Assembly (NCBI RefSeq): GCF_001899075.1
Contig: NZ_MKVA01000008.1
Location: 186,001 to 250,000 of the forward strand
Length of the DNA stretch: 64,000 nucleotides
Source: Devosia sp. 67-54
Lineage (GTDB): Bacteria; Pseudomonadota; Alphaproteobacteria; Rhizobiales; Devosiaceae
Direction of reading: 5' to 3'
Shown here: one piece after another, positions 40,832 to 58,431 of the stretch
Layout of the letters: each line of letters opens with the position of its first letter
Position numbering within the stretch: the stretch's first letter is position 1
Position numbers and translations under genes: made by a program
Notes under the pieces: generated by a model
The model's input: only the letters and a program-made list of their open reading frames with translations
Databases searched by the model: none
Told to the model about the DNA's origin: nothing

Positions 40832-42187
40832 CTACACCAGCTTCTTGATCGGCTTCTTGCGCCAGAAGAACCAGTAATAGATCCCCTGCAGCACGAACAT
40901 GGTGCAGAAGCTGGTGGCGTAGCCGGTCCAGATGCCGTTGAGGCCCAGCCACGTCGTCGACAGGTAGAGCGCCAGCGGCGTTTCGACGATGACGATGGTG
41001 CCCAGGCTGATCAGCATCGGGATCAGCACGTCGCCCGAGGCGCGCATGATGCCCGACAGGATTACCGCGAAGCCGAACATCAGGACGCTCCACAGCACGA
41101 TGTGGAGCAGCGTTTCGGTCATCTCCACCACCTTGGGCTCGGTGATGAAAAGCTGCACCAGCGTCTGGCTGAAGATGTAGGCAAGAAGGATCAGCGCACC
41201 GGTGATGATGAGGTTCATCACCATCGCCGTGCGCGTGATGCGGCCGAGCTGGTCCTGCTGCCCGGCGCCGATGGCCTGCGCCCCGAAGATCGAGGCGGCG
41301 ATGCCGATCGACATGGCCGGGAACTGCACATAGCTCATCACCTGCCCCACCGCGCCATAGGCGGCGGTGGCGTCGGAGCCGAAGCGATTGATGATGCCGA
41401 CGACGACGATGGCCGCGACCGACGACACGATCATCTGCACGCCGGCCGGCACGCCGAGGCGGAGGATGGTGCGCAGCAGGCCGAAATCGATGCCCAGATG
41501 CGTGAGGAACACCCGGTCGGGCGCCAGCGGATGCTTGCGCGCCCGGAGGTAGAAGAACAGAAACACCAGCACCACGACGAAGCCGATGATGAACGCCACC
41601 GCCGCCGCGTAGAGTCCGAGCTTCGGCAGCCCGCCCCAGCCCAGGATGAAGGCGGGCGTGACCACGAGGCCGACGAGGATCGACATGATCAGCGCCACCA
41701 GCGGCGTGGTGGTGTCGCCCACGCCGCGCAGGATCGAGGTGGCGATCAGGTAGACGAAGAAGCCGGGCATGCCGATGAGGATGATCAGCCCGTAGGTCGT
41801 CGACTGGTCGAGGATGTTGGCCGGCGCGCCGAGCACGCTCATGATCTGGCGGATGAAGATGGTGCCGAGCACCGCGACCACGACGCCGGCGAGGAACGTC
41901 ACCGTCATGGTGGTGCCGGCGATCTCCTTGACCTTGAGCTCGTTCTTGGCGCCCCAGGCCTGGCCGATGAGCACGGTCGAGCCCGAGGCGAGCCCGATGA
42001 TGAAGCTCATCAGGAAGAACAGGATGGGAAAGAACGCCGCGGTGGCGGCGAGCGCATCCACGCCCACCAACTGGCCGATATAGATGTTGTTGATGGTGCC
42101 GCTCATGGCCTGCAGGATGTTGCTGACCATCAGCGGCACGAGGAACAGAAGGAACCGCTGCCACAGCGGCTTTTGCGCGGGGGTCAT
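40832..42187 (-). CDS. MATE-family efflux transporter
   Basis: A 451-residue multidrug/toxin exporter with twelve membrane segments in two bundles. MATE signatures are VPLMVSNILQAMSGTINNIY (first bundle), GVGDTTTPL and its second-half equivalent MRASGDVLIPM. AGGAG 7 bases before the ATG supports the start. The ~270 bases upstream hold no gene; a short leader with partial resemblance to a guanidine riboswitch was considered and not accepted. Confidence 0.92.
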   Translation of the reverse strand: MTPAQKPLWQRFLLFLVPLMVSNILQAMSGTINNIYIGQLVGVDALAATAAFFPILFFLMSFIIGLASGSTVLIGQAWGAKNELKVKEIAGTTMTVTFLAGVVVAVLGTIFIRQIMSVLGAPANILDQSTTYGLIILIGMPGFFVYLIATSILRGVGDTTTPLVALIMSILVGLVVTPAFILGWGGLPKLGLYAAAVAFIIGFVVVLVFLFFYLRARKHPLAPDRVFLTHLGIDFGLLRTILRLGVPAGVQMIVSSVAAIVVVGIINRFGSDATAAYGAVGQVMSYVQFPAMSIGIAASIFGAQAIGAGQQDQLGRITRTAMVMNLIITGALILLAYIFSQTLVQLFITEPKVVEMTETLLHIVLWSVLMFGFAVILSGIMRASGDVLIPMLISLGTIVIVETPLALYLSTTWLGLNGIWTGYATSFCTMFVLQGIYYWFFWRKKPIKKLV

Positions 42188-42455
42188 CTATAAACTCCTG
42201 AGAAACCCGGTCTCGTCTGGATGCGATCCCAAGGGCGTCGTCCGGCAGGGATGGCCGGCAGTCGCAGAGGGCCTCTTCACGTCCGATGAACAGGACGCCG
42301 GCGGGTCAGAGCTCAGGTTTTTTGGAACGCACGGGCGGCTGTTTAGCTGCGCCTCGCGACAGCGTCAATCGTCCGCGCCGGCCGGCGGATGGCCATTGCT
42401 GCCGGCCGCGAACACGCCGATAATCGCGGGCAGTCCCTTGTTTTCCCGGCCCAGC

Positions 42456-43667
42456 ATGTCCCTCGCTTCGTTCGCCCCGCACGGCCCCGGCAGCCGCAAC
42501 GCCTTCGTGCTCGCCTTGAGCCAGGGGCTCTATGTCTGCGGCATCTCGGTCGACCTGACTCTGACCGGCATCACCGGCTACCAGCTCGCCCCCGACAAGG
42601 CGCTGGCCACCCTGCCCTTCGCGCTGATCACCGTCGGCGCCGCCATCGTCACCGTGTTCGCCGCCTATGTGCTGGGCCGGCTCGGCCGCCGCCTCGGCTT
42701 CGCCGTCGGCTCGCTCTGCGGCGCGGTCGGCGGACTGATCTCGGTGTTTGCGGTGTTCCACGCCAGTTTCTGGCTGTTCTGCCTCGGCACGGCGCTGATC
42801 GGCGCCTACCAGGGCTTTGCCCAATATTACTCCATCGCCGCCGCCGATTCGGTGACCGCCGAGTTCAAGAGCCGCGCCATCTCCACCGTGCTCGCCGGCG
42901 GCGTGCTGGCGGCCCTGGCCGGGCCGGCGCTGGCGGCGCTCACCAGCACGCTGATCCCCGGCGTGATGTTCGCCGGCGCCTACATGCTGGTGGCGGTGCT
43001 GGCGCTCGTCGCCACCGCCCTGGTGCTGGCGCTCTATCGCGACGTCGAGCCGGTGGCGATCGTCAGCGATGTGCCGCCGCGGCCGCTGCGCGAGATCATG
43101 CGCCAGCCGATCTTCGGCGCCGGCGTTGCCACCACCATGGCCTCGGCCGCCGCGATGACGCTGGTGATGACCGCCGCGCCGCTCGCCGCCGTGGCCTGCG
43201 GCTACCCCATCGAGGACGGCGCCCACATCATCCAGATGCATTTGATCGGCATGTTCGTGCCGTCGTTCTTTTCCGGCCGGCTGGTCGCGAGGTTCGGCGT
43301 CTGGCCGGTGCTGGCGACCGGCATGGCGCTGCTGCTGGTCTGCGCCGCCACCGCCATCGCCTCGACGGCGCTGCCGGCGTTCTACGCCGCGCTGTTCCTG
43401 CTCGGCGTCGGCTGGAACCTGATGATCGTTTCTGGAACGACGCTCCTGGCGCAATCCTATCGGCCCAACGAGCGGCCGAAGACGCAGGCGATCAGCGGGC
43501 TGTTCAACAACCTCGCGGGCTCCGCCGGCGCGCTGTCGGCCGGCCTGGCGCTGCAGAATGCCGGCTGGACCCTGCTCAATTTCGGCATGGCGCCGATCCT
43601 GGTGCTCAGCCTGCTGATGATCCTGCGCTGGGTGCGCGCCCGCCGGCTCGAGCCGGCCGCCGCCTGA
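42456..43667 (+). CDS. MFS transporter
   Basis: A 403-residue, 12-segment MFS permease. The motif A-like loop LGRLGRRLGFAVG is clear. Phrases such as IGAYQGFAQYYSIAA, MHLIGMFVPSFFSGRLVARF and LLGVGWNLMIVSGTTLLAQ closely match the MFS protein at 58866-60062, making the two paralogues. The substrate is unknown. It stands alone and is divergent from the MATE gene. Confidence 0.88.
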   Translation: MSLASFAPHGPGSRNAFVLALSQGLYVCGISVDLTLTGITGYQLAPDKALATLPFALITVGAAIVTVFAAYVLGRLGRRLGFAVGSLCGAVGGLISVFAVFHASFWLFCLGTALIGAYQGFAQYYSIAAADSVTAEFKSRAISTVLAGGVLAALAGPALAALTSTLIPGVMFAGAYMLVAVLALVATALVLALYRDVEPVAIVSDVPPRPLREIMRQPIFGAGVATTMASAAAMTLVMTAAPLAAVACGYPIEDGAHIIQMHLIGMFVPSFFSGRLVARFGVWPVLATGMALLLVCAATAIASTALPAFYAALFLLGVGWNLMIVSGTTLLAQSYRPNERPKTQAISGLFNNLAGSAGALSAGLALQNAGWTLLNFGMAPILVLSLLMILRWVRARRLEPAAA

Positions 43668-44373: not shown

Positions 44374-44497
44374 ACCGAAGCGCGGTTGACGGCGCAGGGC
44401 CGGCGGTCGCCGCGCCTTTCCGTGGAAAGACCCTGCGACGCCTCCCCGACGCAGGCCTGGCATGTCATGCTCCTCGTTGAGCTTGAGGGAGCCTCAC

Positions 44498-44974
44498 ATG
44501 ATCCGCAGCCTGTCGCTTGTTTTCGCCGCCGCCCTGACGCTGAGCGTTGCACCCGCCCTGGCCGGCACCGCCGAGGACGCCTTTCTCGCCAAGCTCGCCG
44601 GCAGCTACAGCGGCGCCGGCAAGCTGACCGGCAGCCGCAGCGGCGCGCTGAGCTGCACGCTGTCCATCCGCACCACGACGGCAGGAGCCAGCTATCGCGG
44701 CAAATGCGACGTCGAGGAGATCGGCCCGCAAAGCTTCTCCGGCGACATCGCCTACAACGACAAGGCGAAGCGCTACGAGGCCACCTCGCCCACCGGCATC
44801 GTCACCATCGGCACCCGCGGCGGCAGCACGCTCACCTTCGCCGCCAAGATCCGCGGCCTCGCCACCGGCACCTCGATCATGAAACTGAGCGCCGGCCGCG
44901 TCGTCGTCGACACCACCATCGACGACCCCGATTCCGGCAAGCCGGTGAAATCGCATATCGAAATGAAGCGCTAG
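44498..44974 (+). CDS. exported protein of unknown function
   Basis: A 158-residue protein with a signal peptide (SLSLVFAAALTLSVAPALAG) and a beta-rich mature part (KLAGSYSGAGKLTGSRSG; DVEEIGPQSFSGDIAYND) reminiscent of lipocalin-like periplasmic proteins, but no family is recognised. It is the last chromosomal-looking gene before the transposition operon. Confidence 0.68.
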   Translation: MIRSLSLVFAAALTLSVAPALAGTAEDAFLAKLAGSYSGAGKLTGSRSGALSCTLSIRTTTAGASYRGKCDVEEIGPQSFSGDIAYNDKAKRYEATSPTGIVTIGTRGGSTLTFAAKIRGLATGTSIMKLSAGRVVVDTTIDDPDSGKPVKSHIEMKR

Positions 44975-45144
44975 CTGGTGCCAGGAATGAAAAAGATTCG
45001 CTCCTCACCCCTCAGAAAAGCCCAGAAATCCGGGACTTTCAAGACAGGCGAATGATCGACTTTCGCTCTGCTATGAACAAGATGCGCTCTGAATCCAGGC
45101 AAAAAAAGGGGCCGGAACCGCGTCCCGACCCCGTCAACCGGTCA

Positions 45145-46998
45145 CTAAATGAGGTTGGCTCTTTCGAGCTCATCCCTCAGGTAGAAGCATCCTCGAAGTC
45201 CCGGGAATGCCCTCGAGATTTCGTGACGCTCGACCATCGGCTTCACGGTTTTCCAATCCTGGTTCCGCAGGAGCGCCAGGGCTTGCACCGAGATATGAGT
45301 GCGCTCGAAGCTTTCGGCCGAGGCCCAACGGATACGGTATCGCCGGCCGCGCCCCCCGATCTGCACGGCGGCTAACCTGCGTCGCTCCACCAATCCTACC
45401 ACTGCCTCGGACTTGACCTTCCATCGAGCGCATAGGTCCGTGACGCTCACGGTTCCATCCACCGGGGCAGGCCTGACGAATGAGGCGCCGACTTCATCAC
45501 GTTCGGCAACGAGCGCCTCCAGTAGGCGCCCTTGGGGAAGGCGACCCAACCACCCGATATCGCCGTCGAGAATTCGACGAACAAGCTCGATGAATTTCGG
45601 CGCTGATCGCCAAGCTGCGCGACGAATGCTCACCATGCTCGTATCGCGTTGGACGACGGGCGTAGCGTTTCTCGTGAGCATGCCCAAGAGTGCGTCCACG
45701 TCGGATCGCCGGAACGACATCACCACTCCGGGCGCGTCGAATGCCGGCTTCAGAATACCGGCATCGGCCAGGGCCACGAGTTGCTTCTGCGTGGCGCCGA
45801 TCTCGTGGGCGAGCACGGTCACAGAGACCACATCGACGAACTTCGCGAACAACCGCTCGGCATCCTCCGCAGCGATGATCCTGGGACCAGGTGCATCACC
45901 GGCGCGGATGTGCCTGAGGACTCCAGCCAGTGTCGCCACCCTCGTGGCCGTGACCCAATCCACACCATATCGCCGCTCGACGTCGTGCACGGTCAACATC
46001 GGCGGGCTGGAATTGGTGACGCCGAACAGGGTTTCGCCACCCGCTCCTGGAAAGGTCGAGAACGCCTGGCGAGCGACGATGGTCCTCAGTTCATCTCGAT
46101 CCGTGTCATCGCCAAGGCTCTGTTCCAGCCAACCGATGATGTGGCCCAAGGTGCCGGTGATCGTATGGCTGCGCGTAAGCCTCTCCGAAGACTCGACCAT
46201 CAGCCTCTCGAACAGCCGCCGGATCGCGGGCGGACCTTCTGCCAGGATACGGAACCCCTCCTCCCTCGCCAGATAGATCTCGTGCTCGGTCAAATCGGCC
46301 TGGCGCCGCTTCGGCCCGAACAGCGAGACGCGGCCAAACACCAGGGATCCCCCGGCGACGTGATGAAGCCGCATCTTGTCGAGGAGAGGGACATCGGTCG
46401 ACTTTCCCTCCAATCGATCCTGGCAATAACGCTCGCACGCAGACGTCGGGCGGATCCGCGATTGATGCATCAGCCGGTCCAGATCGAGCAGTGCGTCCCC
46501 CACCCGAAGGCCAAAATCGTGGAAGTCGAAACGTGCGGGAAGATCGGACACGATCTCGACCAGACTGCGCGAGTGCCTGTGGCACGTCGCAATCGGCATG
46601 AACTGCCAGACCAAACGCCCATGCACGGCCTGATCGTGGCGCAGATGAGGGTTCTGCGCCATGTCTTCCACCGCACACTCCGGACAGAGACGAAATCGCC
46701 CACGAACGAGGACCGTCCTGGACACGAGCTCATCGCCGAGGCGGTAGTTCCCCCTGTCCAGCCAGACCGGTGACCAACGTCTGAGCTCCCCGAAATCGGC
46801 ACCCGTCACGTCCGCCAATGCCCGGATCGCAGACTCCTCCCCCTTGGCGATGGAGTTGAATGGAATGCCCACATCCTCCCAGAAGATCGTGGATGAGGGC
46901 GCGCGCCAGAGGGTAGCGACCCGGCACGCGAAGCCAGTTCCGGTTTCACCCTCACCGAGATGCAAGGTCTTCTTCAGCGGTTCGATGCTCGGCGTCAC
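45145..46998 (-). CDS. tniQ: TniQ-family target-selection protein
   Basis: A 617-residue TniQ/TnsD-like protein. The N-terminal TniQ domain includes a zinc ribbon: CPEC at 105-108 and a second pair CHRH at 139-142 (C139, H142). TnsD/TniQ proteins bring the transposase to a target through the AAA subunit. The C-terminal ~300 residues hold several HTH-like segments (VTVLAHEIGATQKQLVALAD; VTDLCARWKVKSEAVVGLV), fitting DNA-sequence recognition. It is longer than Tn5053 TniQ (~400) and nearer TnsD in size. It overlaps the tniB stop by four bases (ATGA). Confidence 0.9.
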   Translation of the reverse strand: MTPSIEPLKKTLHLGEGETGTGFACRVATLWRAPSSTIFWEDVGIPFNSIAKGEESAIRALADVTGADFGELRRWSPVWLDRGNYRLGDELVSRTVLVRGRFRLCPECAVEDMAQNPHLRHDQAVHGRLVWQFMPIATCHRHSRSLVEIVSDLPARFDFHDFGLRVGDALLDLDRLMHQSRIRPTSACERYCQDRLEGKSTDVPLLDKMRLHHVAGGSLVFGRVSLFGPKRRQADLTEHEIYLAREEGFRILAEGPPAIRRLFERLMVESSERLTRSHTITGTLGHIIGWLEQSLGDDTDRDELRTIVARQAFSTFPGAGGETLFGVTNSSPPMLTVHDVERRYGVDWVTATRVATLAGVLRHIRAGDAPGPRIIAAEDAERLFAKFVDVVSVTVLAHEIGATQKQLVALADAGILKPAFDAPGVVMSFRRSDVDALLGMLTRNATPVVQRDTSMVSIRRAAWRSAPKFIELVRRILDGDIGWLGRLPQGRLLEALVAERDEVGASFVRPAPVDGTVSVTDLCARWKVKSEAVVGLVERRRLAAVQIGGRGRRYRIRWASAESFERTHISVQALALLRNQDWKTVKPMVERHEISRAFPGLRGCFYLRDELERANLI

Positions 46999-48062
46999 TT
47001 CCTGGACCTCCGGGGCTCATCGACCTTCTCTGCCTTGTCGGTACGCCGCTGATCGGCAGTCTGCGCCATCAGCAACGTAGGATCGATCTGTGGCCAGTCA
47101 TCGGCGTGAAAGGGGTTTGCCTGCAGACGGCATCCCGTCTTCGTCGCATAGGCGTCGACGAAGTCCTTCGCCGTCAACGTGCGATCGGGGCGCAGGGCAG
47201 CTCGAGCAATCGCGAGCCTCGCGAGCCGCAGCACGATGCCGAGCGTATAGTTCGAGGCATGCGTCAGACGCTTGCCGAGGACGAAATCCGAATGGATGGC
47301 AACCGTGACCCCGACATCCTTGCAGTAGAGATCGACAATATCTTTTGCATCCTTTGCGTGGCCGATGGTCATGCTCGCCATGGACATGACGTCGAACCGG
47401 CTCCTGATGGCCGCGCGTTCAGCCGTGTCGTGGTTCAGAGAATCTACAATGCCAGGCAAACCATTCACCACGGTCGGCGTCGACCATTCGACGTTGTCGA
47501 TGATGCTGTGGAGCGTGTTCCAGACGAGGTTCTCGTCCTGCTCGCGCGAGCGGCCGGGAGAGGCGGCGGGGTTGATGGCCCACTGGAACTCGTCGATTGC
47601 CAGGAGGGTGAACTGTTCCTGCTGGAAATGGGCGGCGATCCGAGACGCTGCCACGCCCGGCGGGAGATCGCGATTGGCCGGATAGCCCGCATGCCGCAGC
47701 AGCCCGTTGAGAAATGCACCGACGCTCGCGTTGGGCGTGCACTTGTAGCGAAGAATCTTCTTCTGAATGACCTGGCCATCACCAACCGCTACCGGAGTGA
47801 GGCTCTCGATCGCGGCATCCATGGAATAGGTCTTGCCGTGGAACGTCGGCGCCGTGACGGCAAGACACGTGGTGTGAAGGCGGTTGGACGGCCCCAAGGG
47901 CAAAGAACTGTCCTTTCGGACCGTGACGGATTCGTGCAGCAGGGCGATGCGGTCGACCACCCGCGCGAGATCAGGTGTGGGAAACCTGCGCTGGGCGAGC
48001 TTTTCAATCGTATACGCGAGCAAAGGGTGCTTCTCGTCGAGAACTTCGGGCTCAGTGGTCAT
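46995..48062 (-). CDS. tniB: TniB-like AAA ATPase (TnsC-like regulator)
   Basis: A 355-residue ATPase that would bridge target selector and transposase. The P-loop is VTAPTFHGKTYS (about 70-80; GKT intact, the leading Gly replaced by Ala). Walker B is FTLLAIDEFQW (about 151-161), with the TniB-typical DEFQ. ATG 48062 is preferred over 48095 because GAAGG lies 7 bases upstream. It is 98 bases downstream of tniA. Confidence 0.9.
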   Translation of the reverse strand: MTTEPEVLDEKHPLLAYTIEKLAQRRFPTPDLARVVDRIALLHESVTVRKDSSLPLGPSNRLHTTCLAVTAPTFHGKTYSMDAAIESLTPVAVGDGQVIQKKILRYKCTPNASVGAFLNGLLRHAGYPANRDLPPGVAASRIAAHFQQEQFTLLAIDEFQWAINPAASPGRSREQDENLVWNTLHSIIDNVEWSTPTVVNGLPGIVDSLNHDTAERAAIRSRFDVMSMASMTIGHAKDAKDIVDLYCKDVGVTVAIHSDFVLGKRLTHASNYTLGIVLRLARLAIARAALRPDRTLTAKDFVDAYATKTGCRLQANPFHADDWPQIDPTLLMAQTADQRRTDKAEKVDEPRRSRK

Positions 48063-48160
48063 GAGGAAACCTTCTTCAGGATGCGGGCGGGCCATAAGGC
48101 GTACCCATGTGAGAATGGACAGAAGGCGGGTGCGTGCCTGAAATCGCGCCCGCCGAGAGA

Positions 48161-50353
48161 TCAGTCGTCCTTGGAGACGAGTCCCCAGAGCCCCGCGGGC
48201 TCCTCGTCCTGCGTCGACATCGGGTCCGAGCTCGCGACAGCGGCCGGAAGCGCAGGAGGCTGCTGACCACTGGGCTTCACGACGCGTCCGAGCGTACCGC
48301 CGGTGAAAGACGGGACGGTCTTCCGGGCACGCGGATCGTCGTCGTAGACGATGTTGAGCTTGAGCGATCCCACGAGCTTGATCATCTTGCTCTTCGTGAT
48401 CTGCAGATCGCGGATCTGGGACTCTGCGATGCCCTTGTCGCTCATCGCCTCAAGAGTGCGAATGGCCTTGGCAACAGTCGGCCAGTCGAGTGCCTCCTCG
48501 GCGAGGTAGCGACGCTCGAGCTCACGGTTGTAGGCCATCCATTCGGTCAGCCCGACCCCGTCGAGTTCGGGCGGACCGCCGACCGTGACCCACTCCTTGC
48601 CGAGCAGAACGCTGATCTGCCCGATGTCGAGAGGATCGACCTTGATCTTCACTGTCTGCGGTCCGTGCTGCTGCAGGTAGGCTTCGAGCCGACGGCTGCG
48701 ATAGTACATGACGTTGGCATGCCGGATGCCCCAGCGCCCCAGTTCGCGCTCGACCTCGATGCCGAATGCCATTCGAAGCTGTTCCTTCGACGGAGGCGGC
48801 TTGGCGCCGGTCTCGTTGAACAGCCTGAGGAACTTCCGCCTCGGCTGTTGGGCGAGCGGCGCCTTGGGCTTGGTGAGATGGTGGATGTCGACGGTCCAGA
48901 GGATCAGACCATTGGCGATCGCGTCGACGACCATCGAGGTTCGAACCTGCGGGTCGTAATCGCCCCTTTCGATCAGGTTCGCCCCGGTCTGGCCGGTGAA
49001 CTCCGGCAGATACCCTCTGGCGATGTTGCCGAAATGCCTTTCCTGCCCACCGCGCAAGCGGGTGTGGTCACCTGCGGCCTTGCGCACGTGGCCGATCAGC
49101 GAAACCCCGGCCATCCAGAACTCATGGCCGCGGAACGGCGGGCCGCCATCGGTTTCGAGGCAGTCGAACCCGACGGGGAACAGCCAATCGCTGGTGGCAC
49201 CGGCGTAGCGGGCGATGTCTGTCCGGTCCATGAAGGCCATGCGCTGCGCGCCCATCACGGCGTCGGTGCTCTCGGTCATGCTGAACGACAGGCCGAGAGT
49301 GCAGCCGGTGGCACTGTCGCGCAGCAGCGCAACCCAGATCCGCAGCGGCTTGATGATCTCCTTGACCCGGTCGTCGAGCAGTTGCCAGATGCCGTTCTCC
49401 TTGTACAAGGACATCACCTGCATCTTCCAGCAGTCCATGGTGACGTGCTCGCCCACCCGGGTGTACTTCGGGCCCTCGCCGACGAGAGCCAGCTTCTGGC
49501 GCGCCTCCTTGATGTCGCGGCGCCCGATGACGCGTTCGACCTCTGGCGTTTCCCGGACGATACGCGCGATGGTCTGGGCGCAAGGCAGTGGAAAATCGCC
49601 CTCGCCCCGTTCCTTCATCTCCCACAACGCAGTCTTCACCTTGCGCCTCAGCCCTGCGAAGGTGGGTTCCTTCTCGGTGGCGTATTCCACGGCCACCTGA
49701 TGGACCACCCTGCGCACTTCCGGCGCGATGCGACGACCGCCCTCGGTACAGTTCTCCCAGCCGGGAACGAGGACCATGACGTCCCAATTGGCGGCCTTGA
49801 GCTTGCGCAGGTTGTCCCGAAGCGCGGTGGCGCCGGGAGCATCGATCACTGTCCGCCGGCGGTTCTTCCGGCGCTTCGATTCCTTTTCCGCGTCGACATT
49901 CTTCCGGCGTTCACCGTCGACGTCGACGTGCGCGAGCACGGGTGCCAGCTTCACGATCATCGCCGGATGTTCGGCGTCGATCCACGAGGTCAGCGGATCA
50001 TGGGCAAGGGAAGGTTGCCCCGTCTTGCTGCGGCACTCATCGAGATGTTGCGCCCACGCCAGGTCGACGAGGGCCTGGACCTGGATGTCGACGCTGCACT
50101 CGCCCAGCATTCGGTAACGCGACTTCTTGCCGGCGATGCTGCCACCAGGCAGGAAGTAGCCTTCGACCACCTGCAGGGTACCGTCGTCCTTGCGCTGCGC
50201 CAGTTCGCTTCGTTGCAGATTGCGATCCTCGGCATCGGAATCCACCGACACAAGGATCAAATCGGTGTCGCCCTGGGCAACGACGCGGTAGATCCTGGTG
50301 CCATCGATGATGGCCAGCGGCCCGATCTCAATCGTCTTGGGTCGGAGCTTCAT
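48161..50353 (-). CDS. tniA: TniA-like DDE transposase (TnsB/Mu family)
   Basis: A 730-residue transposase with an RNase-H-like integrase core. The catalytic triad reads D307 (VTMDCWKM), D402 (LETDGGPPF) and E438 (GGQERHFG); the D402-E438 spacing of 35 gives the DD35E signature. The N-terminal ~280 residues hold DNA-binding helices (RRKNRRRTVIDAPGATALRD). A Mu-type C-terminal beta-barrel (QTVKIKVDPLDIGQISVLLG) precedes a helical tail that usually contacts the AAA partner. It overlaps the tnsA-like stop (TGATG), so the two are coupled. Confidence 0.93.
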   Translation of the reverse strand: MKLRPKTIEIGPLAIIDGTRIYRVVAQGDTDLILVSVDSDAEDRNLQRSELAQRKDDGTLQVVEGYFLPGGSIAGKKSRYRMLGECSVDIQVQALVDLAWAQHLDECRSKTGQPSLAHDPLTSWIDAEHPAMIVKLAPVLAHVDVDGERRKNVDAEKESKRRKNRRRTVIDAPGATALRDNLRKLKAANWDVMVLVPGWENCTEGGRRIAPEVRRVVHQVAVEYATEKEPTFAGLRRKVKTALWEMKERGEGDFPLPCAQTIARIVRETPEVERVIGRRDIKEARQKLALVGEGPKYTRVGEHVTMDCWKMQVMSLYKENGIWQLLDDRVKEIIKPLRIWVALLRDSATGCTLGLSFSMTESTDAVMGAQRMAFMDRTDIARYAGATSDWLFPVGFDCLETDGGPPFRGHEFWMAGVSLIGHVRKAAGDHTRLRGGQERHFGNIARGYLPEFTGQTGANLIERGDYDPQVRTSMVVDAIANGLILWTVDIHHLTKPKAPLAQQPRRKFLRLFNETGAKPPPSKEQLRMAFGIEVERELGRWGIRHANVMYYRSRRLEAYLQQHGPQTVKIKVDPLDIGQISVLLGKEWVTVGGPPELDGVGLTEWMAYNRELERRYLAEEALDWPTVAKAIRTLEAMSDKGIAESQIRDLQITKSKMIKLVGSLKLNIVYDDDPRARKTVPSFTGGTLGRVVKPSGQQPPALPAAVASSDPMSTQDEEPAGLWGLVSKDD

Positions 50354-51192
50354 CACGCGGCTCCCTTCGCGGTACGACGCACCATGCAGCGACCATCGAT
50401 ACGGGCCGGCTCGACCAGTTCGAGGATACCGTCGTCAAGCAGACGCACGATCGGGCGGAAGGCGACGCCGCCTCCCCCGTGCCTCGAAGCCAGATCGCCG
50501 ATAGCGATCGGTTCCTCGAGCAGCAGAGCAGCCTCGCGGACCATGTCATCGACATGGGTGCGCGGATCGAAGCGCACCGAGACCAACAGGGTGTTGTTGG
50601 CCGCCAGCCAGGCGGGGAAGTCCTCTTCCGTGAGAACGACGATCTCGGACGCGAAGCCGGAGGGCAGCTGGTCGGCGAGGAGGTGGACACGCGCCCGCAT
50701 ATCCTCGCGCTCGGCACGTTCCTTGTTCTTGGCGAAGATAGCAAACGCATCGCCATCGATCCTTTCCGCCCGGAAATCGAACGTGTGGAGCCGTTCGACG
50801 CCGTCGATATCGATGAAGCGGATGCCGGACGGCTGATCCTGAATATGGGCAATGGTGCGGTCGGCCATCAAAGCCAACACCGCCTTACTCTCGATCGTGC
50901 TCTCCGCCACAAGGACGCGGCTCGTCTTGGGGTCGAGCAGCAGACTGGTGCTCGACTTGGTCGAGACGTGCTGCGCACGAGGCTCGCCCTCCGCATTGAA
51001 GGGCGAGAGGCGACTGGCGCCCGACGGCACCAGGACAGGGACCGCGAGATCGTAGCGGTCAGGCTTGCCGAATTCGATTACTGCCATTTCGGGCAAGGGG
51101 GCCGGAGCGGGCACCTCGGGCACGGGCGGCGGCGGAAAGTGGTCGGAAGGAACCAGGGGGAACGCCTGGCTGGTTTGGGTACTCACGGACAT
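50353..51192 (-). CDS. TnsA-like endonuclease
   Basis: A 279-residue protein in the tnsA position. After a Pro-rich N-terminus and a linker, a TnsA-type nuclease core is visible: ESTIESKAVLAL (candidate E101), the IQDQPSGIRF phrase typical of TnsA, D139 in LHTFDFRAERIDG and K155 in FAKNKERA. This gives a possible E-D-K active site. In Tn7, TnsA cleaves the 5' strands so the element is cut out fully. A later winged-helix-like part (ASRHGGGGVAFRPIVRLLDD) is expected for the TnsA C-terminal domain. It is the first gene of the operon. Confidence 0.72.
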   Translation of the reverse strand: MSVSTQTSQAFPLVPSDHFPPPPVPEVPAPAPLPEMAVIEFGKPDRYDLAVPVLVPSGASRLSPFNAEGEPRAQHVSTKSSTSLLLDPKTSRVLVAESTIESKAVLALMADRTIAHIQDQPSGIRFIDIDGVERLHTFDFRAERIDGDAFAIFAKNKERAEREDMRARVHLLADQLPSGFASEIVVLTEEDFPAWLAANNTLLVSVRFDPRTHVDDMVREAALLLEEPIAIGDLASRHGGGGVAFRPIVRLLDDGILELVEPARIDGRCMVRRTAKGAA

Positions 51193-51731
51193 GACTCCTT
51201 GATCATGCCTGCCGGGAGGTCGGCTTGACTCGCAGGGAGCCCGCCGTCATCCTCGAAAGACATGACGTTCACTCGTTGTGTTTGGTCGCCGTGACCCCAC
51301 CAGGAGAACGGCGACCGGTTCTGATCGCGCTCGGGTCCCTCAGAAGGCCCGGGCGCTTTTCATCGAGCCGCGACAACCGCGTTGGACGATCGGGAAATAG
51401 ATCGGCGCGACCTTGACTGCAAACACCGAGAACGACCTAGTGCATTGTAATAAAACGCATTTCCATCCTCACAGTCGGATGAGTGTCGACGCGACGTCGA
51501 CAGACGAATGCCGGCATGGGCACCAGTGTCGGCACGCCCACAACATTCCACGGAAGCCGAGGGCCTGAGCTTCGTTGGCGTCGAACCGGCTCCGACGCCA
51601 ACCCACCGAAGGACTCCGTTAACGACGTCGATGGATCGCGGATTCCGTGTTCGGTCGCTCCGATGCGATGTCGGCGGGGGCTGGTTCCTTGCTGTCGATA
51701 TTTCGAGAATGGCGCTCCAAAGGAGATCGCC
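51193..51731. promoter_or_regulatory. 539-base divergent control region with inverted repeats
   Basis: No gene is supported. It lies between the leftward tnsA operon and the rightward unknown genes and should hold both promoters. Two structures stand out: TTGGCGTCG-N9-CGACGCCAA (51575-51601), a perfect 9-bp inverted repeat, and GTCGAC-N5-GTCGAC (51485-51501). I could not pick a single convincing promoter or a TnsB-site array. Confidence 0.45.
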
Positions 51732-52097
51732 ATGACCAGAAAAACACCGAAGCCCCGCACCTACGCTGAACTCTATGCCGTGTGGCGTGACGAGGTGGCC
51801 ACCGAACTCGAAGAGGCTCCCGAGGCCTATCGAGAGGACGACAGCAACTCCGATCTCATCGTCCATGATATTGGCAGAAAGGTCATCCCGGAGGATGCCG
51901 ACTTCGCCTGGGCCGCTCGCATCATCGCCAGCAAGCCCGGTCTCGCGACCGAGGTCGTGCACGCCGACGGCGCCACGCTTCGCGGCTTTGCCCTCGCCAC
52001 CATCCGGCAGAAGGTCGTTCGCGACCTGCTTAAGGAATTCGAGCCGGTATTCGATCGGCTGCGCCGCGAGGGCGACCAGCAAGACCCTTCGCCCTGA
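51732..52097 (+). CDS. unrecognised cargo protein A
   Basis: A 121-residue soluble protein with no family I know. It is acidic in the first half (VATELEEAPEAYREDDSNSD), then has IPEDADFAWAARIIASKPG and a helical C-terminus (KVVRDLLKEFEPVFDRLRRE). AGGAGA 6-7 bases before the ATG is a good ribosome site. It is the first gene of a plus-strand pair with the next gene, convergent with the FtsH-like protease, so an adaptor or substrate role for that protease is possible but only inferred. Confidence 0.65.
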   Translation: MTRKTPKPRTYAELYAVWRDEVATELEEAPEAYREDDSNSDLIVHDIGRKVIPEDADFAWAARIIASKPGLATEVVHADGATLRGFALATIRQKVVRDLLKEFEPVFDRLRREGDQQDPSP

Positions 52098-52162
52098 ACA
52101 TCGCTCCATTCACCGACAGGCAAGAATTGACATGCAAGCCTGTCGGCGAATGGGAGGACGTC

Positions 52163-52864
52163 ATGCCAGAGGGCGACGAGAACGATATCGATCGTAGGGG
52201 GGCGCCCTACATTCAGGACCTGCGCATACTTCACTACTACGCGCGTTCGCGTCCGGCCCAAGCGCGGCTGTCAGAGCGTAAGCTGGTGGAGGTGATGGAG
52301 GAGCACGATATCGACTTGACCGTCGACATCGTGGGTGCGGCCTTCGAGCGTCTGGAGTTAGAATACGACGTCGTGATGATGGAGCGCCGCCCCACGAGGG
52401 GGAGGCGCGGCCCAGAAGTTGTCCTCGAAAAGCATGATGAGGACGACCTGGAGCACCCGGAGGACTGGGAGAAGTACGCCGATCCACAGTATTCGTCGCG
52501 GAACAAGGGGCGGCTCACGCTCGACGGGGCACTCTTCGCAGAAGTGGCGTCGCTCGTCGCCGGGTATGAATTCATCGCCAAGGCTGCCACCGCACGGATC
52601 CCGCGCGACGAAGTCGAGTGCGAAGAGGTCGCGACGAAGTCGAGACCCGACCGTGCCGACCGAAAAGCGGTGCTGGGTTGGTTGCGCGTGGAACGTCGAC
52701 GCCTGCAGAGGATCGTGGAAGCCATTCGTTCACCCGATGGATCGGTATTCGACTTGAGGGGCAGGGACGAGATGTCCGGGCTGGACCGCACCACTGCCGA
52801 CGAGAGGATCATGGAATTCGTGGACCTCGGGCCGTTCGAGCAGACCGAGGATCCTGAGCAATAA
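52163..52864 (+). CDS. unrecognised cargo protein B
   Basis: A 233-residue soluble, charged protein. The N-terminal part (LSERKLVEVMEEHDIDLTVD then FERLELEYDVVMMERRPTRG) could be a winged helix; the rest is helical with charged runs. No family recognised. ATG 52163 is chosen because GGGAGG lies just upstream, over TTG 52127. Its stop is only 7 bases from the stop of the convergent FtsH-like gene, so transcripts overlap. Confidence 0.68.
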   Translation: MPEGDENDIDRRGAPYIQDLRILHYYARSRPAQARLSERKLVEVMEEHDIDLTVDIVGAAFERLELEYDVVMMERRPTRGRRGPEVVLEKHDEDDLEHPEDWEKYADPQYSSRNKGRLTLDGALFAEVASLVAGYEFIAKAATARIPRDEVECEEVATKSRPDRADRKAVLGWLRVERRRLQRIVEAIRSPDGSVFDLRGRDEMSGLDRTTADERIMEFVDLGPFEQTEDPEQ

Positions 52865-52871
52865 TGCTGCT

Positions 52872-54281
52872 TCAGGACAGCGTCGGCGGATCGAGCGGGA
52901 ACCGCTCCACGACCTTCTTCACCTGCTCGCCGGTGAGGAAGCGTTTCTCGATCAATGCGTCGGCAACCGCCAGCAGCACACCCTTGTGCCGGCGTAGAAG
53001 GTCCACGGCGCGGTCGTAGAGATCGGCGAGCCCCTTCTCCACCTGGCGCCGCAGCTCGGGATCCACCACCAACAGCTCGTGAGCCCGATCGAACGGTGCC
53101 CTGAAGAGGAGGCTGCCGCCAAGACCCGTAGCCGTGAAGATGCTCGTCATCAGTTGCGTGGCCCGGCCGAGATCGGAATCCGCGGCGCCGCCGGCGCCTT
53201 GGCTCGGCACATCGAGAACGAGCTGTTCAGCGGCGCGCCCAGCCAACAGGGTGACGATCATCGCGTCCAGATGCTCCCGGGTCGAGTACGCGAGCGACCG
53301 CTCATCGAAGGATACGTTGCCCCCGGAGGCTCCGGTCGAAAGGATCGAAACGGTCTTCACCGCGCCCACATCCTGCACCAGCCCCGCGACGACATGGCCG
53401 GCTTCGTGCAGCGCAGTGCGGCGCAGATCTTCCACCGAACGATCGTCCTCGGAAACGATCTGAACCATCAGATCCTCGAGCAGCATCGAGCGTCCGGCAC
53501 GCCGTGCGCGGCGTCGGGCGGCGCGAACCTGCTCCATCACGATGGCTCCGGTCGCCCCTACGTTGGAGCCGATCAGCGCCAATGGACCAAGATCTTCACC
53601 AGTCAGGTCCCCGGCCAGATGGTGCCGCATGATGCGCTCGAGCCCCGCGGCATCCGGAGGGCCGACATAGATTGCGCGTTCGAGGCGACCCGGGCGCAGC
53701 AGCGCAGGATTGATGTCCTCGAGCCTATTGGTGGCACCGATCACGATCACGCCATCCCGGTCCGACATCGCTCCATCGAGCAGCGTGTAGAAATCGAGGA
53801 TTACCGGAAGCCACCAATCGCGACCCCTGTCTCCCAATTTGTCGATATTAGGAAGCGCGTTAATTTCATCTAGAAAGAGAAAGCTTGGCGCTTTACTTCT
53901 CGCCTCTTCAAACACCTTTCTCTGTGCCTTGATTACGCTGTCCAGATAACCGCTGGTCGTCGCGAAGAATTCTCCCATCGACGCGACGACTGTCGGAATG
54001 CCACAGGCCTCCCCCAGCATCTGAGCCAGCAGCGCTTTTCCGGTGCCCGGAGGGCCGAATAGGACGGCCCCACGGTCAACTTGGTCGAGCCCGACGATTC
54101 CGCGACGAACGTCGGCGAGATCATCGCGCAGATCCAGCGCCCATTGCCGCGCAGCACCGTACTCGATCGCATCCTCGAGTCGCGGAAGGCCCTTGGCCCG
54201 CGGACCGGCCTGCAGCTTGGCCGTGATGGCTGCATCGAGACGATCCACCGCCTCCGTCGGCTTGCTCCCTTTGACGATCAT
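52872..54281 (-). CDS. FtsH-like AAA+ zinc metalloprotease without membrane anchor, 5' end probably lost
   Basis: A 469-residue protein with an AAA+ module and M41-like peptidase. Walker A is GPPGTGKA (76-83; the usual Thr after Lys is Ala), Walker B is FLFLDEIN (134-141), and the second region of homology NRLEDINPALLRPGRLER (185-202) holds the Arg fingers. The zinc motif HEAGH is at 292-296 with a third ligand Asp near 370 (GGAADSDLGRA). No transmembrane segment or periplasmic domain precedes it, unlike housekeeping FtsH. The frame stays open upstream (FDEITS before the ATG) into the fused molybdoenzyme DNA, so the native start is probably missing. It is cargo of the transposon. Confidence 0.82.
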   Translation of the reverse strand: MIVKGSKPTEAVDRLDAAITAKLQAGPRAKGLPRLEDAIEYGAARQWALDLRDDLADVRRGIVGLDQVDRGAVLFGPPGTGKALLAQMLGEACGIPTVVASMGEFFATTSGYLDSVIKAQRKVFEEARSKAPSFLFLDEINALPNIDKLGDRGRDWWLPVILDFYTLLDGAMSDRDGVIVIGATNRLEDINPALLRPGRLERAIYVGPPDAAGLERIMRHHLAGDLTGEDLGPLALIGSNVGATGAIVMEQVRAARRRARRAGRSMLLEDLMVQIVSEDDRSVEDLRRTALHEAGHVVAGLVQDVGAVKTVSILSTGASGGNVSFDERSLAYSTREHLDAMIVTLLAGRAAEQLVLDVPSQGAGGAADSDLGRATQLMTSIFTATGLGGSLLFRAPFDRAHELLVVDPELRRQVEKGLADLYDRAVDLLRRHKGVLLAVADALIEKRFLTGEQVKKVVERFPLDPPTLS

Positions 54282-54297
54282 AGAGGTGATCTCGTCG

Positions 54298-56205
54298 AAA
54301 ATGATAGACGACCCGGCCGGTGATCAGCGTGAAGGGATAGTCCTCCGAGACCGGGTTGGGCTGTCGCCGCCACTGCACGGGCCGCAGGAACGCCTTGCCC
54401 TTGGGGTCGATGCGCTCGTAATCGGTGCGGGTACGGGGGGCGCCACTCAGCAAATCGTGGCCGTAGGTTTCGCAATAATCGATATCGGTCCCGAAATTCA
54501 GGTCCTCGTAGAGCCGTTCGCAGCCGCGCGGATGCTGCGCGTTGCACGGCCAGCGCACCGCGCCCATTTCGAGGATCAGCTCGTAGCTCATCCCCGAATA
54601 ATCGCACGGACGCCCCTGCGAGACCTTGCCCCATTCCTCGAAAGCCTGCCTGGGATCGGTGAACGGGATCAGCGGCGCGCCGTCGCGATCCGTGAAGCCC
54701 AGGCGCCGCGCGACCTCCACGACGATATCGAAGTCGCTGCGCGCCTCGCCCGGCGGTTCGACCGCCTGCAGCAGCAGGTTGACGCTGCGATCGGCATTGG
54801 TGATGCAGCCGGTCTTCTCGCCCCACATCGCGGCCGGAAAATAGATGTCCGCAAGGTCCACCGTCTCCGCGTCGATGAACGGATCCTGCACGACCATGAA
54901 CAGCTTGCGCATGATGCGTTCGGAACGGTTCTGGTCGGGGAGGCTGACCAAGGGGTTGGTGCCGATCACCCACATGAACTCGATCTCGCCGCGCTCGGCC
55001 GCCTCCATCATCGACATGATGTCGACCGGAACTTCGTGGCGGAAATGATCGTAGTCGAGGTTCCAGAGCGCGGCGAGATCGCGCATCTGCGCTTCGTTGT
55101 GCGGGTTGCGATAGGCGGGGTAGGAGCCACCCGCGCCGGCCTCGCGGTTGCACATCGCCGATGGCTGGCCGGCCATCAGCAGCGGCCCCGCGCCGGGCTT
55201 GCCGATGGCGCCCCGCAACAGGTGCACCGAGTTCACCAGTGACGACGAGGCGGTCGCTTCGACGCTCTGATAGAAGCCCTGCAACACGGTCGAGACGAAA
55301 CGCTCGGTGGTGCCGATCCATTCGGCGGCGGTTTCCAGATCGGCTTGGGGGATCGCACAGATCTTTGCGACACGCTCGGGCGGATAGTCACGGACCATCG
55401 CCTCCATCTCGGCAAAGCCGACCGTGTGCTCATCGATGAAATCGTGGTCGATCCAGTCCTTGCGGATCAACAGATGAATGATGCCGTTCATCAGCGCGAC
55501 ATTGGTGCCGGGCGCAAGCTGCAGGTGCAAATCAGCGCCTTGCCTTACAGTCGGTGACTTGCGTGGGTCGGCGACGATGATGCGGCCGCCATTCTTCTGC
55601 TTCGACGCCAGCATCCGTTCCCACAGGACGGTCTGCACTTCGGCGACGTTGTGGCCGTAGAGGCAGAGCAACTCTGCCTGGTCGATATCGGCGTAGGACG
55701 CGACCGGGCCATCGGTGCCGAAATTGGCCATCAGCCCGGTGGCGGATGTCGCCGTGCAGAGCCGCGTATTGCCGTCGATATTCGCGGATTGGAGCCCGCC
55801 GCGCCACAGCTTGCCCAGCGTATAGAGTTCCTCGATGGTAAGCTGGCCGGAATTGTAGCAGGCAAGATTGTTGTGACCTTGCGCCCAGGCGTCGCGAAAG
55901 CGCTCGACGAAGAAGTCCATTGCTTCCGCCCAGCTCGCTGGCTGCAACGGCTCGCCCTTCCGGCGGCGGATCATCGGCGTCGTGCCGCGGCGCTTCGAGT
56001 GGTTGGCCACCCAGGCATGCTCGCCCTTGGGGCCGAGATGGCCGAAATTGACCGGATGGCTAGCCTGTCCGCGGACCCCGACGATGCGGCCGTCCTTGAC
56101 CGCGATGTCGAGACCGCAGCCGTTCGAGCAAAGCAGGCATGCCGAATGGACCCATTCGTCGGGCTCGCCCTGGATAGCGAGATTGCTGTCAATTCTGGGT
56201 TGCAT
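54298..56205 (-). pseudogene. molybdopterin oxidoreductase (NapA/Fdh-like), 3' truncated
   Basis: The first 636 residues of a Mo-bisMGD enzyme. An N-terminal CLLCSNGC supplies three Fe-S cysteines. The usual fourth Cys is replaced in the segment GHLGPKGEHAW. The molybdenum-ligand Cys position is kept (NTRLCTATSATG). NADP-type pterin-binding stretches follow (RIIVADPRKSP; WVIGTNPLVSLPD). Homology stops after LITGRVVYHF, so most of the final molybdopterin dinucleotide-binding domain is missing. The frame then reads into antisense protease sequence to a stop at 54121. GGGAG upstream supports ATG 56205. Nitrate reductase and formate dehydrogenase are both possible parents. Confidence 0.82.
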
Positions 56206-56466
56206 CGCTGCGCTCCCTCGCTTCGACCAACGGCTCGCGCGTAATGCGCGGCATGACCGCCATGACGGGCTATTCGACGCCTCGATGGCGATAAATGCAA
56301 CGGGCACTCCCCGGACGATACTTCCGGGGCACCTGCCGGAAAAAACGGTGTCGAGAGGCGGTCGAGCGTGTCGAGTGCCAAAGCAAGGATCCAGATATCG
56401 GCCCCGCGGCATCCCATCCTTGAGCTCAATTAATGAACGACAGCGCCATCCGCGACCCAAAAGCCT

Positions 56467-56862
56467 CTAGCTGTTCATAAGATAGATGATGCGTCCCAGT
56501 GCGCCGAACAGCAGTGCAAACGCCGCTATGGCCTGGATGAAGAAGCCCGGATAGCGCTTCAACGGCGCGACGAGGTAGCCGACGAAATAGGCAATCCGTC
56601 CGACCAGCCACAAGGCGCCCAGAGCCGCTGCCCATTCCGGACTCCAGTAGATCGCGAACAGCCACATCGAAGGCAGGAAGACCGGCAACCACTCGATCGT
56701 GTTGGAATGGCCGCGGATGGCGCGCTCGAGCAGCGGATCGCCGGTCATGGTCGGCGCGAGGATGCCCGTTGTCCTGTGGGTCCTCGCGACGGTGAGTGCC
56801 ATGCCGAAGATCATGAGGCTGCAAAGCAGCGTCACGATGGCGACCAGATAATACTGCTCCAT
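56467..56862 (-). CDS. MAPEG-family membrane protein
   Basis: A 131-residue protein with four membrane segments of the MAPEG family (glutathione S-transferase/eicosanoid-related): LVAIVTLLCSLMIFGMALTV, GDPLLERAIRGHSNTIEWLP with the conserved Arg/Asn/Glu, and GRIAYFVGYLVAPLKRYPG. Bacterial members are poorly characterised. ATG 56862 is preferred over TTG 56910 because the first helix starts right there, although a good ribosome site is lacking. It follows the nucleoside phosphorylase-like gene on the same strand. Confidence 0.82.
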   Translation of the reverse strand: MEQYYLVAIVTLLCSLMIFGMALTVARTHRTTGILAPTMTGDPLLERAIRGHSNTIEWLPVFLPSMWLFAIYWSPEWAAALGALWLVGRIAYFVGYLVAPLKRYPGFFIQAIAAFALLFGALGRIIYLMNS

Positions 56863-56890
56863 ATCCGCATCCGCATCCGCCCCGCTCCAA

Positions 56891-57766
56891 TCAAATGCTA
56901 TCGCGTTCAAGCGGTGACGTGGAGGTCCACGCCCTCGCTGTGGCGGCGACGACCGCCAATGTTGCCGTCACACCATCGGCATCGCCCTTCTCGAAATCTC
57001 CTTCGGTCCGGGCCATGCTGTTGGTGACATGCGCGAAGCAGACCACCGATCTGTCTCTTGCCGTCGCGAAGGCATAGAGCGCGGCCGCTTCCATCTCGAC
57101 GGCAACCACCCCCTTGGCGCGCGCTGCCTCGATCGCGGTTTCGGTTTCGCGATAGGGCGCGTCGGTCGTCCAGGTAGCGCCCCGGTGAACGACCACGTCG
57201 CAATGTTCCGGAAGAGCTCTCTCGACGTCCGCAAGCAGGTTCGCGCTCGGCGCCTCCGAAAAGGTCGATGGCGGCAGATAGTGGTAGCTCGTGCCCTCGT
57301 CGCGCAATGCACGGTCGATCAATACGAAGTAGGGCGTGGGCCCGCTGTCGGCGATCAGCCCGGCAGAGGTAACGCTGACGAGCAACTTGCAGCCTGAGGC
57401 GAAGAGCTGCTCGGCGACGAGCACGGCGAAGGAAGCGCCCACGGCGCAGCCGACGATTCCGACTTCGCCGATCCCTTCAAGATCGAAGGTCAGAAGCTCG
57501 GTGTGATAGCAGGCCCAGCCGCCATGAAGCTGTCCACGACCCGTCCGCTTCAAGTGGCGAACGACATCGCCGTCGGGATCCAGAATACAGATGTCGGGAA
57601 CCGGCGACATCGGCAGGCTTTTCTGCCGGCGCGCCTCACGCAGAAGTGCTTCCGGCCGGAACGCGGACGGCGCGGAATAGTCCTTGGCCTGCAGGATCGG
57701 CGATCTTTGGTCTTGTCGTCCTGAAGCCGTTTCCTCTTCTGCTCCGGACGCTGTCTGCCGGCTCAT
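56891..57766 (-). CDS. nucleoside phosphorylase (PNP/UDP family)-like protein
   Basis: A 291-residue protein. The first ~55 residues are a polar extension. Then comes a PNP_UDP_1 fold: GEVGIVGCAVGASFAVLVAEQLF, LLVSVTSAGLIADSG and the ribose/base-contact helix VVAVEMEAAALYAFA. This points to phosphorolysis of a nucleoside (possibly uridine or purine type). It overlaps the ArsR-rhodanese stop by four bases (ATGA), so it is in the same operon as the regulator. Confidence 0.82.
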   Translation of the reverse strand: MSRQTASGAEEETASGRQDQRSPILQAKDYSAPSAFRPEALLREARRQKSLPMSPVPDICILDPDGDVVRHLKRTGRGQLHGGWACYHTELLTFDLEGIGEVGIVGCAVGASFAVLVAEQLFASGCKLLVSVTSAGLIADSGPTPYFVLIDRALRDEGTSYHYLPPSTFSEAPSANLLADVERALPEHCDVVVHRGATWTTDAPYRETETAIEAARAKGVVAVEMEAAALYAFATARDRSVVCFAHVTNSMARTEGDFEKGDADGVTATLAVVAATARAWTSTSPLERDSI

Positions 57767-58431
57767 GCGCCGGCCTCGATGTCCAGTCCGGCCGCCTTCC
57801 ACTCCGGGAACCCGTCCTCGAGCCTGCGAACCTTGTAGCCCTTGGCGCGCAGGCTCGACACCGCGTCCACGGACAGGACGCAATATGGGCCGCGGCAATA
57901 GGCGATGATCTCCTGATCCCTCGGCAATTCCGACAGCCGCTGTTCCAACTCGGTGAGCGGCAGATTCAACGCGCCAGGCAGATGGCCGAGCGCGAATTCA
58001 TCCTCGGGTCGTACGTCGAGCAGCGTCACCATGCCGTCGCGCAAGGACGCGAGGAGCTCGTTCCGGGTCACCGGAGCCAAAGCGTCGCGGGCCCCGAAAT
58101 AGTCGTTCATCATCTGGCGCACCTCGGCGACGTTCCGTTCGCCGACGCAACCCAGCGCCTTGAGCAGGGCCACGACTTCGGTCTCCCCGGACAGGCTGTA
58201 GAGAATGCGCTTGCCCTGGCGCTCCGTCTCGACCAGCCGCGCGCGGCGCAGGATCTGCAGATGGCGCGAGGCGTTGGCGAAACTCAGGCCGGCTCGCTCG
58301 GCAAGCTCTTCCACGCTGCGCTGGCCCTGCGCCAGATGCTCCAGCAGTTCCAGCCGGTGGGCATGGCCGATGGCCTGCGCGACCTCGGCGAGACCGGAAT
58401 AGATCGCCTGTTTCGGACCAGTGGTTGACAC
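57763..58431 (-). CDS. ArsR-family regulator fused to a rhodanese domain
   Basis: A 222-residue fusion. Residues ~10-90 are an ArsR winged helix (HRLELLEHLAQGQRSVEELA; FANASRHLQILRRARLV). Residues ~125-215 are a rhodanese domain with the active loop CRGPYC (C179-C184). Known relatives are thought to sense reactive sulfur or thiols through the rhodanese cysteines. GTG 58431 is chosen because GGGAG sits 6 bases upstream; ATG 58455 lies within the operator. It is divergent from DsrE across an inverted repeat. Confidence 0.9.
   Translation of the reverse strand: MSTTGPKQAIYSGLAEVAQAIGHAHRLELLEHLAQGQRSVEELAERAGLSFANASRHLQILRRARLVETERQGKRILYSLSGETEVVALLKALGCVGERNVAEVRQMMNDYFGARDALAPVTRNELLASLRDGMVTLLDVRPEDEFALGHLPGALNLPLTELEQRLSELPRDQEIIAYCRGPYCVLSVDAVSSLRAKGYKVRRLEDGFPEWKAAGLDIEAGA

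Follow-up and report, generated by a model that had tools for sequence, protein, structure and literature searches.

The 64,000-nucleotide stretch of Devosia sp. 67-54 analysed here (contig NZ_MKVA01000008.1; hereafter the window) carries a partial, damaged and probably immobile copy of a Tn7-like transposon, almost certainly a member of an alphaproteobacterial family of known kind, together with a gene for an FtsH-like AAA+/M41 protease. The core of the element consists of four minus-strand genes, tniQ, tniB, tniA and tnsA, which overlap or lie closely spaced (Table 1), and protein profiles confirm the four-gene operon proposed in the initial annotation. The Pfam matches of TniQ and TniB exceed the family cut-offs and the Mu-transpos_C match of TniA lies slightly under its own (20.9 bits against 21.7). 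The predicted DD35E triad of TniA holds, with D308, D403 and E439 invariant across 20 aligned proteins and 35 residues between the last two, and the long TniQ does contain an extra helix-turn-helix (HTH) at residues 518-557 (HTH_17 3e-5, slightly below cut-off). The tniA gene gave a single match in the host genome; a plasmid megablast returned no match, and single-protein TniA scans of genome contigs and viral contigs found no relative. The G+C content is 0.62-0.65 over window 45-58 kb, compared to 0.66-0.71 over the adjoining 20 kb on the left.

The AlphaFold2 model of the window TnsA (predicted local distance difference test, pLDDT, 43.7) was too poor for use, so the identification of this protein is carried by sequence profiles. 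A 24-member TnsA profile, the window protein included, matches the Tn7 TnsA structures 1F1Z and 1T0F (E ~1e-9) and the TnsAB protein of the CRISPR-associated transposon (CAST) PseCAST (6.6e-19). PF08722 is matched by 14 of the 24 members, the window TnsA not being one of them. The candidate catalytic residues named in the initial annotation are kept almost throughout 45 aligned proteins (E101 in 44, D139 in 45 and K155 in 42), an alignment that includes one degenerate paralogue, L087_4636 (L and G handles designate loci and genomes). No match to the resolvase family PF00239 was found inside the window element, as had been noted, or inside the five relatives with both ends mapped, and no Cas effector gene was found among the seven element open reading frames scanned in the window, a scan that covers the part of the element still present.

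Tn5053/Tn402 elements normally carry a resolvase and have no TnsA, and the window element was originally contrasted with them as an oddity. The contrast is no surprise, since TnsA together with TniA, TniB and TniQ is the gene set of Tn6022-type Tn7-like elements. What stands out is the FtsH-like gene; this adjoining AAA+/M41 gene, frequent in the element family, had been overlooked, and the element content as first described was incomplete.

The window FtsH-like gene is 5'-truncated and retains Walker A, Walker B and a HEAGH motif, and the proteins of relatives whose loci do not end within the gene are 611-772 residues long as called. A tree of 80 proteins separates the FtsH-like sequences from 20 housekeeping FtsH with a support of 1.0 and places the window copy in the FtsH-like clade; L138_927, one of the 18 tree copies labelled as lacking tniA, groups with the housekeeping proteins. 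A strong N-terminal hydrophobic segment is present in 6/52 FtsH-like proteins, compared to 33/33 full FtsH (by motif), a comparison that rests on relatives, given the truncation of the window copy, and takes its 33 FtsH from the 72 named-genome loci described below. The protease of the module is soluble-looking. The model of the Siculibacillus FtsH-like protein (pLDDT 70.3) has FtsH as its nearest Protein Data Bank fold (2ce7, 3kds). FtsH-like genes occur in tandem in L145, L148 and G013:C1:291677-296380, no tniA being called within L145 or L148, and genome G041 has up to 8 FtsH-like profile matches, ordinary FtsH included.

We searched 136 genomes of the host's family with profiles of TniA (20 members) and of the FtsH-like protein (22 members) and kept, among the matches listed, 55 TniA places and 115 FtsH-like places of at least 275 bits, those of 261 bits or less being dropped as ordinary FtsH. 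Both the window and the near-identical G063 and G042 are counted, one FtsH-like gene is shared by two TniA places, and misses are possible in a search that scores only the best candidates per genome. An FtsH-like gene lies within 5 kb of tniA at 39/55 TniA places (0.72 expected within 10 kb under random placement in 4.2-Mb genomes), and at 32 of the 36 places where tniA scores at least 320 bits. In the opposite direction, TniA was found within 15 kb of 38/115 listed FtsH-like places, corresponding to 31/42 of those scoring at least 600 bits and 7/73 of those below. The association extends to other families of the order, where the tnsA side bears the FtsH-like gene in 9 of 15 loci (in two of these it is partial, at a locus end) and L099 has an FtsH-like fragment on the tniQ side. 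Named genomes gave 589 matching loci. Among the best 80 there are 8 FtsH-like genes, four of which stand beside tns genes, in Siculibacillus lacustris, Microvirga aerilata, Rhizobium sp. CF080 and Aurantimonas sp. CSK15Z-1; the other 72 of these 80 loci, some on short contigs, are ordinary FtsH by match region, and none has tns genes. An FtsH-like scan of viral contigs gave one weak match only.

The limits of the mobile unit were established on relatives. A 48-kb element is present in genomes G063 and G042 at different sites, with 99.66% identity, and its ends were read directly from the alignment, with 5-bp duplications TGAGA and AATTG. A scan for TG..CA ends plus a 5-bp duplication, in which tRNA positions were not used, ranks this alignment-derived pair of ends first in both genomes and gives first-ranked ends for L057/G015 (GCAAT), L065/G028 (TCCAC) and L083/G028 (CTGGG); for L053/G081 (AAAGT) the pair is third by raw score, but has TGT at both ends. 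Two results weigh against the scan: 8/14 composites gave no convincing ends, and in a control on four elements the score observed was reached, in each case, by 1/60 random left windows. Inverted ends and 5-bp duplications, which the initial annotation had proposed to define by aligning complete copies, are thus present in five mapped relatives, and the window shows a left end only. These five elements span 24-48 kb, enclose the FtsH-like gene and have their target at the cargo end, far from tniQ; the FtsH-like module therefore very probably lies inside the mobile unit.

The targets in the relatives are specific, as had been predicted from the long TniQ; for the window copy the left end alone is available. 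ARAGORN places a tRNA-Met 14 bases past the right end in both G063 and G042, a tRNA-Leu 4 bases past it in G081 and a tRNA-Arg 22 bases past it in G015, and of the two G028 elements one ends at the recQ 3' end and the other (L083) inside comM/yifB (NCBIfam). Hence tRNA genes, the recQ 3' end and comM all serve as targets within one element family. In L188 (G015) a tRNA-like sequence lies inside the right end, about 170-245 bases from the terminus, adjoining the tRNA-Arg target; its D-arm and T-arm were recognised by eye, it ends in CCACCA and is not called by ARAGORN, and it has 19/20 bases in common with the D-arm region of the target tRNA-Arg. The near-identical 48-kb element in two species (L129/L130, from G063 and G042) suggests recent transfer. 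A gene for a heavy-metal P-type ATPase (HMA and E1-E2 ATPase domains; L131:3358-5610) is found in related elements.

Three clusters of small genes, c5, c6 and c7, occur near the FtsH-like gene, mostly upstream of it. Cluster c5 (about 200 residues, in one or two copies) has 33 members in 22 loci, c6 has 17 members in 16 loci, with DUF6634 in all three members scanned, and c7 is present in 13 loci, with HTH_3 in the one member scanned. The c5 profile aligns with the TnsA profile in hhalign (96.4%, E 1.3e-9, 177 columns), and so do clusters c13, c36 and c39, which occupy the tnsA position. Cluster c8, from another subgroup, gives 73.8% with TnsA and 97.6% with c5, compared to at most 6.2% for 41 other control profiles against TnsA and 30% for the small-neighbour control c15 with c5 as the target. 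The catalytic residues are almost entirely lost from c5: among 16 proteins E101 is retained in 1/16, D139 in 0/16 and K155 in 0/16. A TnsA paralogue lies within 4 kb of the FtsH-like gene in 26 of the 42 loci with both FtsH-like and TniA, a number that results from 28 after removing L139 and L146, where the match was tnsA itself, and that counts both G063 and G042 as well as the short matches L063 and L080. The slot proximal to tnsA thus often holds one or two TnsA paralogues, catalytically dead as judged from their sequences, a DUF6634 protein and the FtsH-like protease. In the window the part of the module upstream of the FtsH-like gene is absent.

It is the dead TnsA paralogue that hints at a module concerned with transposition complexes. 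By analogy with Tn7, TnsA would cut the 5' strands and the TnsB-like TniA would cut and join the 3' ends, while TniB would link the ends so cut to the target chosen by TniQ, often located on the 3' side of a tRNA gene, with a 5-bp duplication as the result. Carrying both TnsA and TniA, intact relatives would move largely by cut-and-paste; the initial annotation had predicted this mode, which is a fair reading of the presence of TnsA, although in a reconstituted assay of the TnsA-bearing Tn6022 simple insertions made up 60.9% and cointegrates 39.1% (PMC10293859). On this scheme the dead TnsA may dock on the TniB or TniA of its own or of a rival element, and the FtsH-like protease might then unfold or degrade the docked protein. 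We tentatively propose that the inactive TnsA is a bait or adaptor by which the FtsH-like protease is directed to TnsC/TnsB complexes; the protease would then either complete transposition of its own element, in the manner of a built-in ClpX, or destroy rival transpososomes. A precedent comes from PseCAST, whose phage-coupled propagation in Escherichia coli falls about 200-fold upon clpX deletion, ClpX being hypothesised to disassemble the post-transposition complex (PMC12326709); this dependence and the proposed disassembly role make a built-in AAA+ helper plausible. That the function of the module is directed at transposition falls, in our judgement, a little short of an even chance. As an overall account, a partial Tn7-like copy with a module that acts on transposition complexes is probably the best explanation of the locus.

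Several observations weigh against such a role, and some of them support an alternative that we consider a real, if equally tentative, possibility, namely that the FtsH-like module, an ATPase-protease, is an ordinary cargo that moves freely between elements and serves defence or stress responses by sensing phage or damage; its link to transposition would be positional only, and its TnsA-like domain a binding fold put to new use. Of 49 loci considered, 26 have all five proteins above the length limits, and among these the pairwise distances of TniA, TniB, TniQ and TnsA correlate with one another (r 0.80-0.90; 0/2000 permutations for the three TniA pairs tested), whereas those of the FtsH-like protein correlate with TniA, TniB, TniQ and TnsA at r 0.05-0.15 only, the TniA pair being reached in 321/2000 permutations. 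A dedicated remodeller of its own transpososome should co-diverge with it, and a strictly co-evolving transposase partner is therefore rejected. FtsH-like DNA and its neighbouring genes are common to elements with different tns genes, and the window itself combines an FtsH-like protein nearest to that of L064, from the host genus (59%), with tns proteins nearest to those of L053 (46-60%). No tniA lies within 15 kb of 77/115 listed FtsH-like places, 16/42 loci have no TnsA paralogue nearby, the window among them, and the full-length FtsH-like proteins of L069 (4478-6448) and L070 (15011-17005) have no HExxH, with the Walker motifs kept. Finally, the FtsH-like gene is missing from all 12 plasmid-borne relatives examined, the one weak match being an IteA-type ATPase. 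In five of these relatives annotated defence genes lie upstream of tnsA (placed relative to tnsA and not to the element ends), in favour of a cargo: CBASS in one, restriction-modification in two, DRT5/SIR2 in one and IteA/IteS-like genes, below curated cut-offs, in one. In the Rhizobium acidisoli plasmid (L279:1290-4844) the slot upstream of tnsA-tniA-tniB-tniQ is occupied by another ATPase-protease pair, an IteA-like ATPase and an IteS-like S8 protease.

The module is thus exchangeable, considering that the protease does not co-diverge and that the 12 plasmid relatives are devoid of it. The missing co-divergence speaks against a remodeller private to one element, and is compatible both with an action directed at rivals and with a generic defence cargo; the swapping of the module between elements would be accounted for if it destroyed rival Tn7-like transpososomes. 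Over 16 loci the FtsH-like distances correlate with those of c5 at r 0.77 (Spearman 0.32), compared to 0.41 (0.06) with TniA. Against a defence cargo, the module matches PADLOC families only by generic AAA+ similarity, one gene family occupies the slot at 39/55 places in the family searched, and the partner is specifically a TnsA paralogue rather than a known defence effector.

The derivation of the element from a Tn5053/Tn402-type transposon that gained TnsA and lost its resolvase is very unlikely. Tn5053 and Tn6022 do share one broad TnsB clade (PMC8649781), but the tnsA distances track those of tniA, tniB and tniQ over the 26 loci, which makes tnsA an old member of the set, and the mapped relatives have no resolvase; a resolvase in every relative, which would have spoken against the initial annotation, was thus not observed. 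Still less probable is that the FtsH-like gene is a host attachment gene outside the element, adjoining tnsA as glmS, codirectional, adjoins Tn7: 32/39 FtsH-like/tniA pairs are codirectional, but 7/39 are oppositely oriented, and for the mapped elements, whose duplicated ends enclose the gene and whose target lies at the far end, this reading is refuted.

Concerning known systems, Tn6022 is an Acinetobacter Tn7-like element with TnsA, TnsB, TnsC, TniQ, TnsF and TnsE that targets comM (PMC10293859). The family described here shares with it TnsA, TniA/TnsB, TniB/TnsC and TniQ, and the relative L083 (G028) is likewise inserted in comM; unlike Tn6022, the relatives also use tRNA and recQ targets and carry the FtsH-like and dead-TnsA module, which the sections of PMC10293859 available to us do not mention for Tn6022. 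The TnsA fold and catalytic residues and the 5-bp duplication are shared with Tn7, in which the target-gene geometry differs from the cargo-end target of the mapped relatives; furthermore, a long TniQ stands here in place of TnsD/TnsE and a protease module has been added. With Tn5053/Tn402 the element has TniA, TniB and TniQ in common, and differs from it in having TnsA and no resolvase. The FtsH-like protein resembles the membrane protease FtsH in its AAA+ and M41 domains with HExxH, and differs from it in forming a separate clade, with its own N-terminal region and mostly without the strong hydrophobic segment. ClpX also acts on Mu transpososomes. As an AAA+ unfoldase proposed to disassemble a post-transposition complex, ClpX offers a parallel on CAST (PMC12326709); ClpX is, however, a host protein, while here the element itself would supply the candidate, along with a protease domain of its own and a TnsA-like partner.

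The literature searched holds no FtsH-like/dead-TnsA module associated with Tn7-like elements, which is not proof of its absence from print, and nothing on DUF6634; the words FtsH, protease and peptidase have 0 occurrences in the main text of PMC8649781. The disassembly of Tn7-type complexes after insertion and the competition among such elements are open questions, and an element family carrying its own AAA+ protease beside inactive TnsA copies would make both testable. Such elements may bring their own tool for controlling or dismantling transposition complexes, and Tn7-based tools could gain a matched helper in an element-borne AAA+ protease.

The initial annotation delimited the element at 44975-54297. 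Its left limit is within 4 bases of the end identified here at 44979, where homology of the left flank to two same-genus genomes stops nearby (at 44983 for G092 and at 44915 for G090) and where the sequence matches the left end of L053, the closest relative (TniA 60% identical), at 19/28 bases, the highest among 3731 TG-starting window positions (runner-up 17). The distance from this end to tniQ is 166 bp, compared to 155 in L053, and the first copy of the duplication would be GCTGG (44974-44978). The right limit did not stand: 54297 is rejected as a transposon end, because a 5'-truncated FtsH-like gene there meets a 3'-truncated molybdopterin gene. That both genes are cut at 54297-54305 follows from the shortened FtsH-like gene, whose homology starts within the conserved FDEITS block, and from the missing C-terminus of the molybdopterin protein, whose best NCBIfam matches end at 534/672 and 575/673 of the profiles.

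The search for a right end, extended to 82000 in window numbering and thus to 37 kb from the left end, gave no convincing candidate, which makes the window copy probably immobile, and a generic inverted-repeat search did not reveal the element ends. The most similar candidate, at 55549, was discarded with 16, 18 and 16 of 30 bases matching three reference ends and a duplication of only 3/5, as were two places with a full GCTGG duplication, which match at most 12/30 bases. The event that cut the FtsH-like module also deprived the copy of any detectable right end.

Table 1. Features of the Tn7-like element and its flanks, in window coordinates.
Feature	Position	Strand	Evidence
Host gene, 170 aa; stop codon abuts the left end of the element	44462-44974	+	Flank homology to genomes G092/G090
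Left terminal sequence TGCCAGGAATGAAAAAGATTCGCTC..., outer element end	44979-45008		Likeness to L053 left end
tniQ (TnsD-sized target selector, 617 aa)	45145-46998	-	PF06527 3.1e-13
tniB (TnsC-like AAA+ regulator, 366 aa)	46995-48095	-	PF05621 3.2e-6
tniA (TnsB-like DDE transposase, 731 aa)	48161-50356	-	Mu-transpos_C 3.6e-4; PADLOC TnsB 7.8e-9
tnsA-like endonuclease (279 aa)	50353-51192	-	NCBIfam TnsA_like 3.3e-5, far below cut-off
orf204	51483-52097	+	Homologue at same position in relative L053
orf245	52127-52864	+	Homologue at same position in relative L053
FtsH-like AAA+/peptidase M41 gene, 5'-truncated, 469 aa	52872-54281	-	PF00004 2.6e-24; PF01434 4.5e-19
Deletion or recombination junction	54297-54305		FtsH-like coding homology (FDEITS) runs into molybdopterin gene (GRVVYHF)
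Molybdopterin oxidoreductase gene, 3'-truncated at junction	54297-56460	-	Flank; element membership not claimed

In an empty-site search, the molybdopterin gene was found in none of 60 other relatives at the strict limit of E 1e-150, and the low-G+C stretch that holds it (54300-58000) is therefore probably also acquired DNA. Two major facilitator superfamily (MFS) transporter genes of one sequence cluster, in the same orientation, flank the element region at 42084-43667 and 58560-60062.

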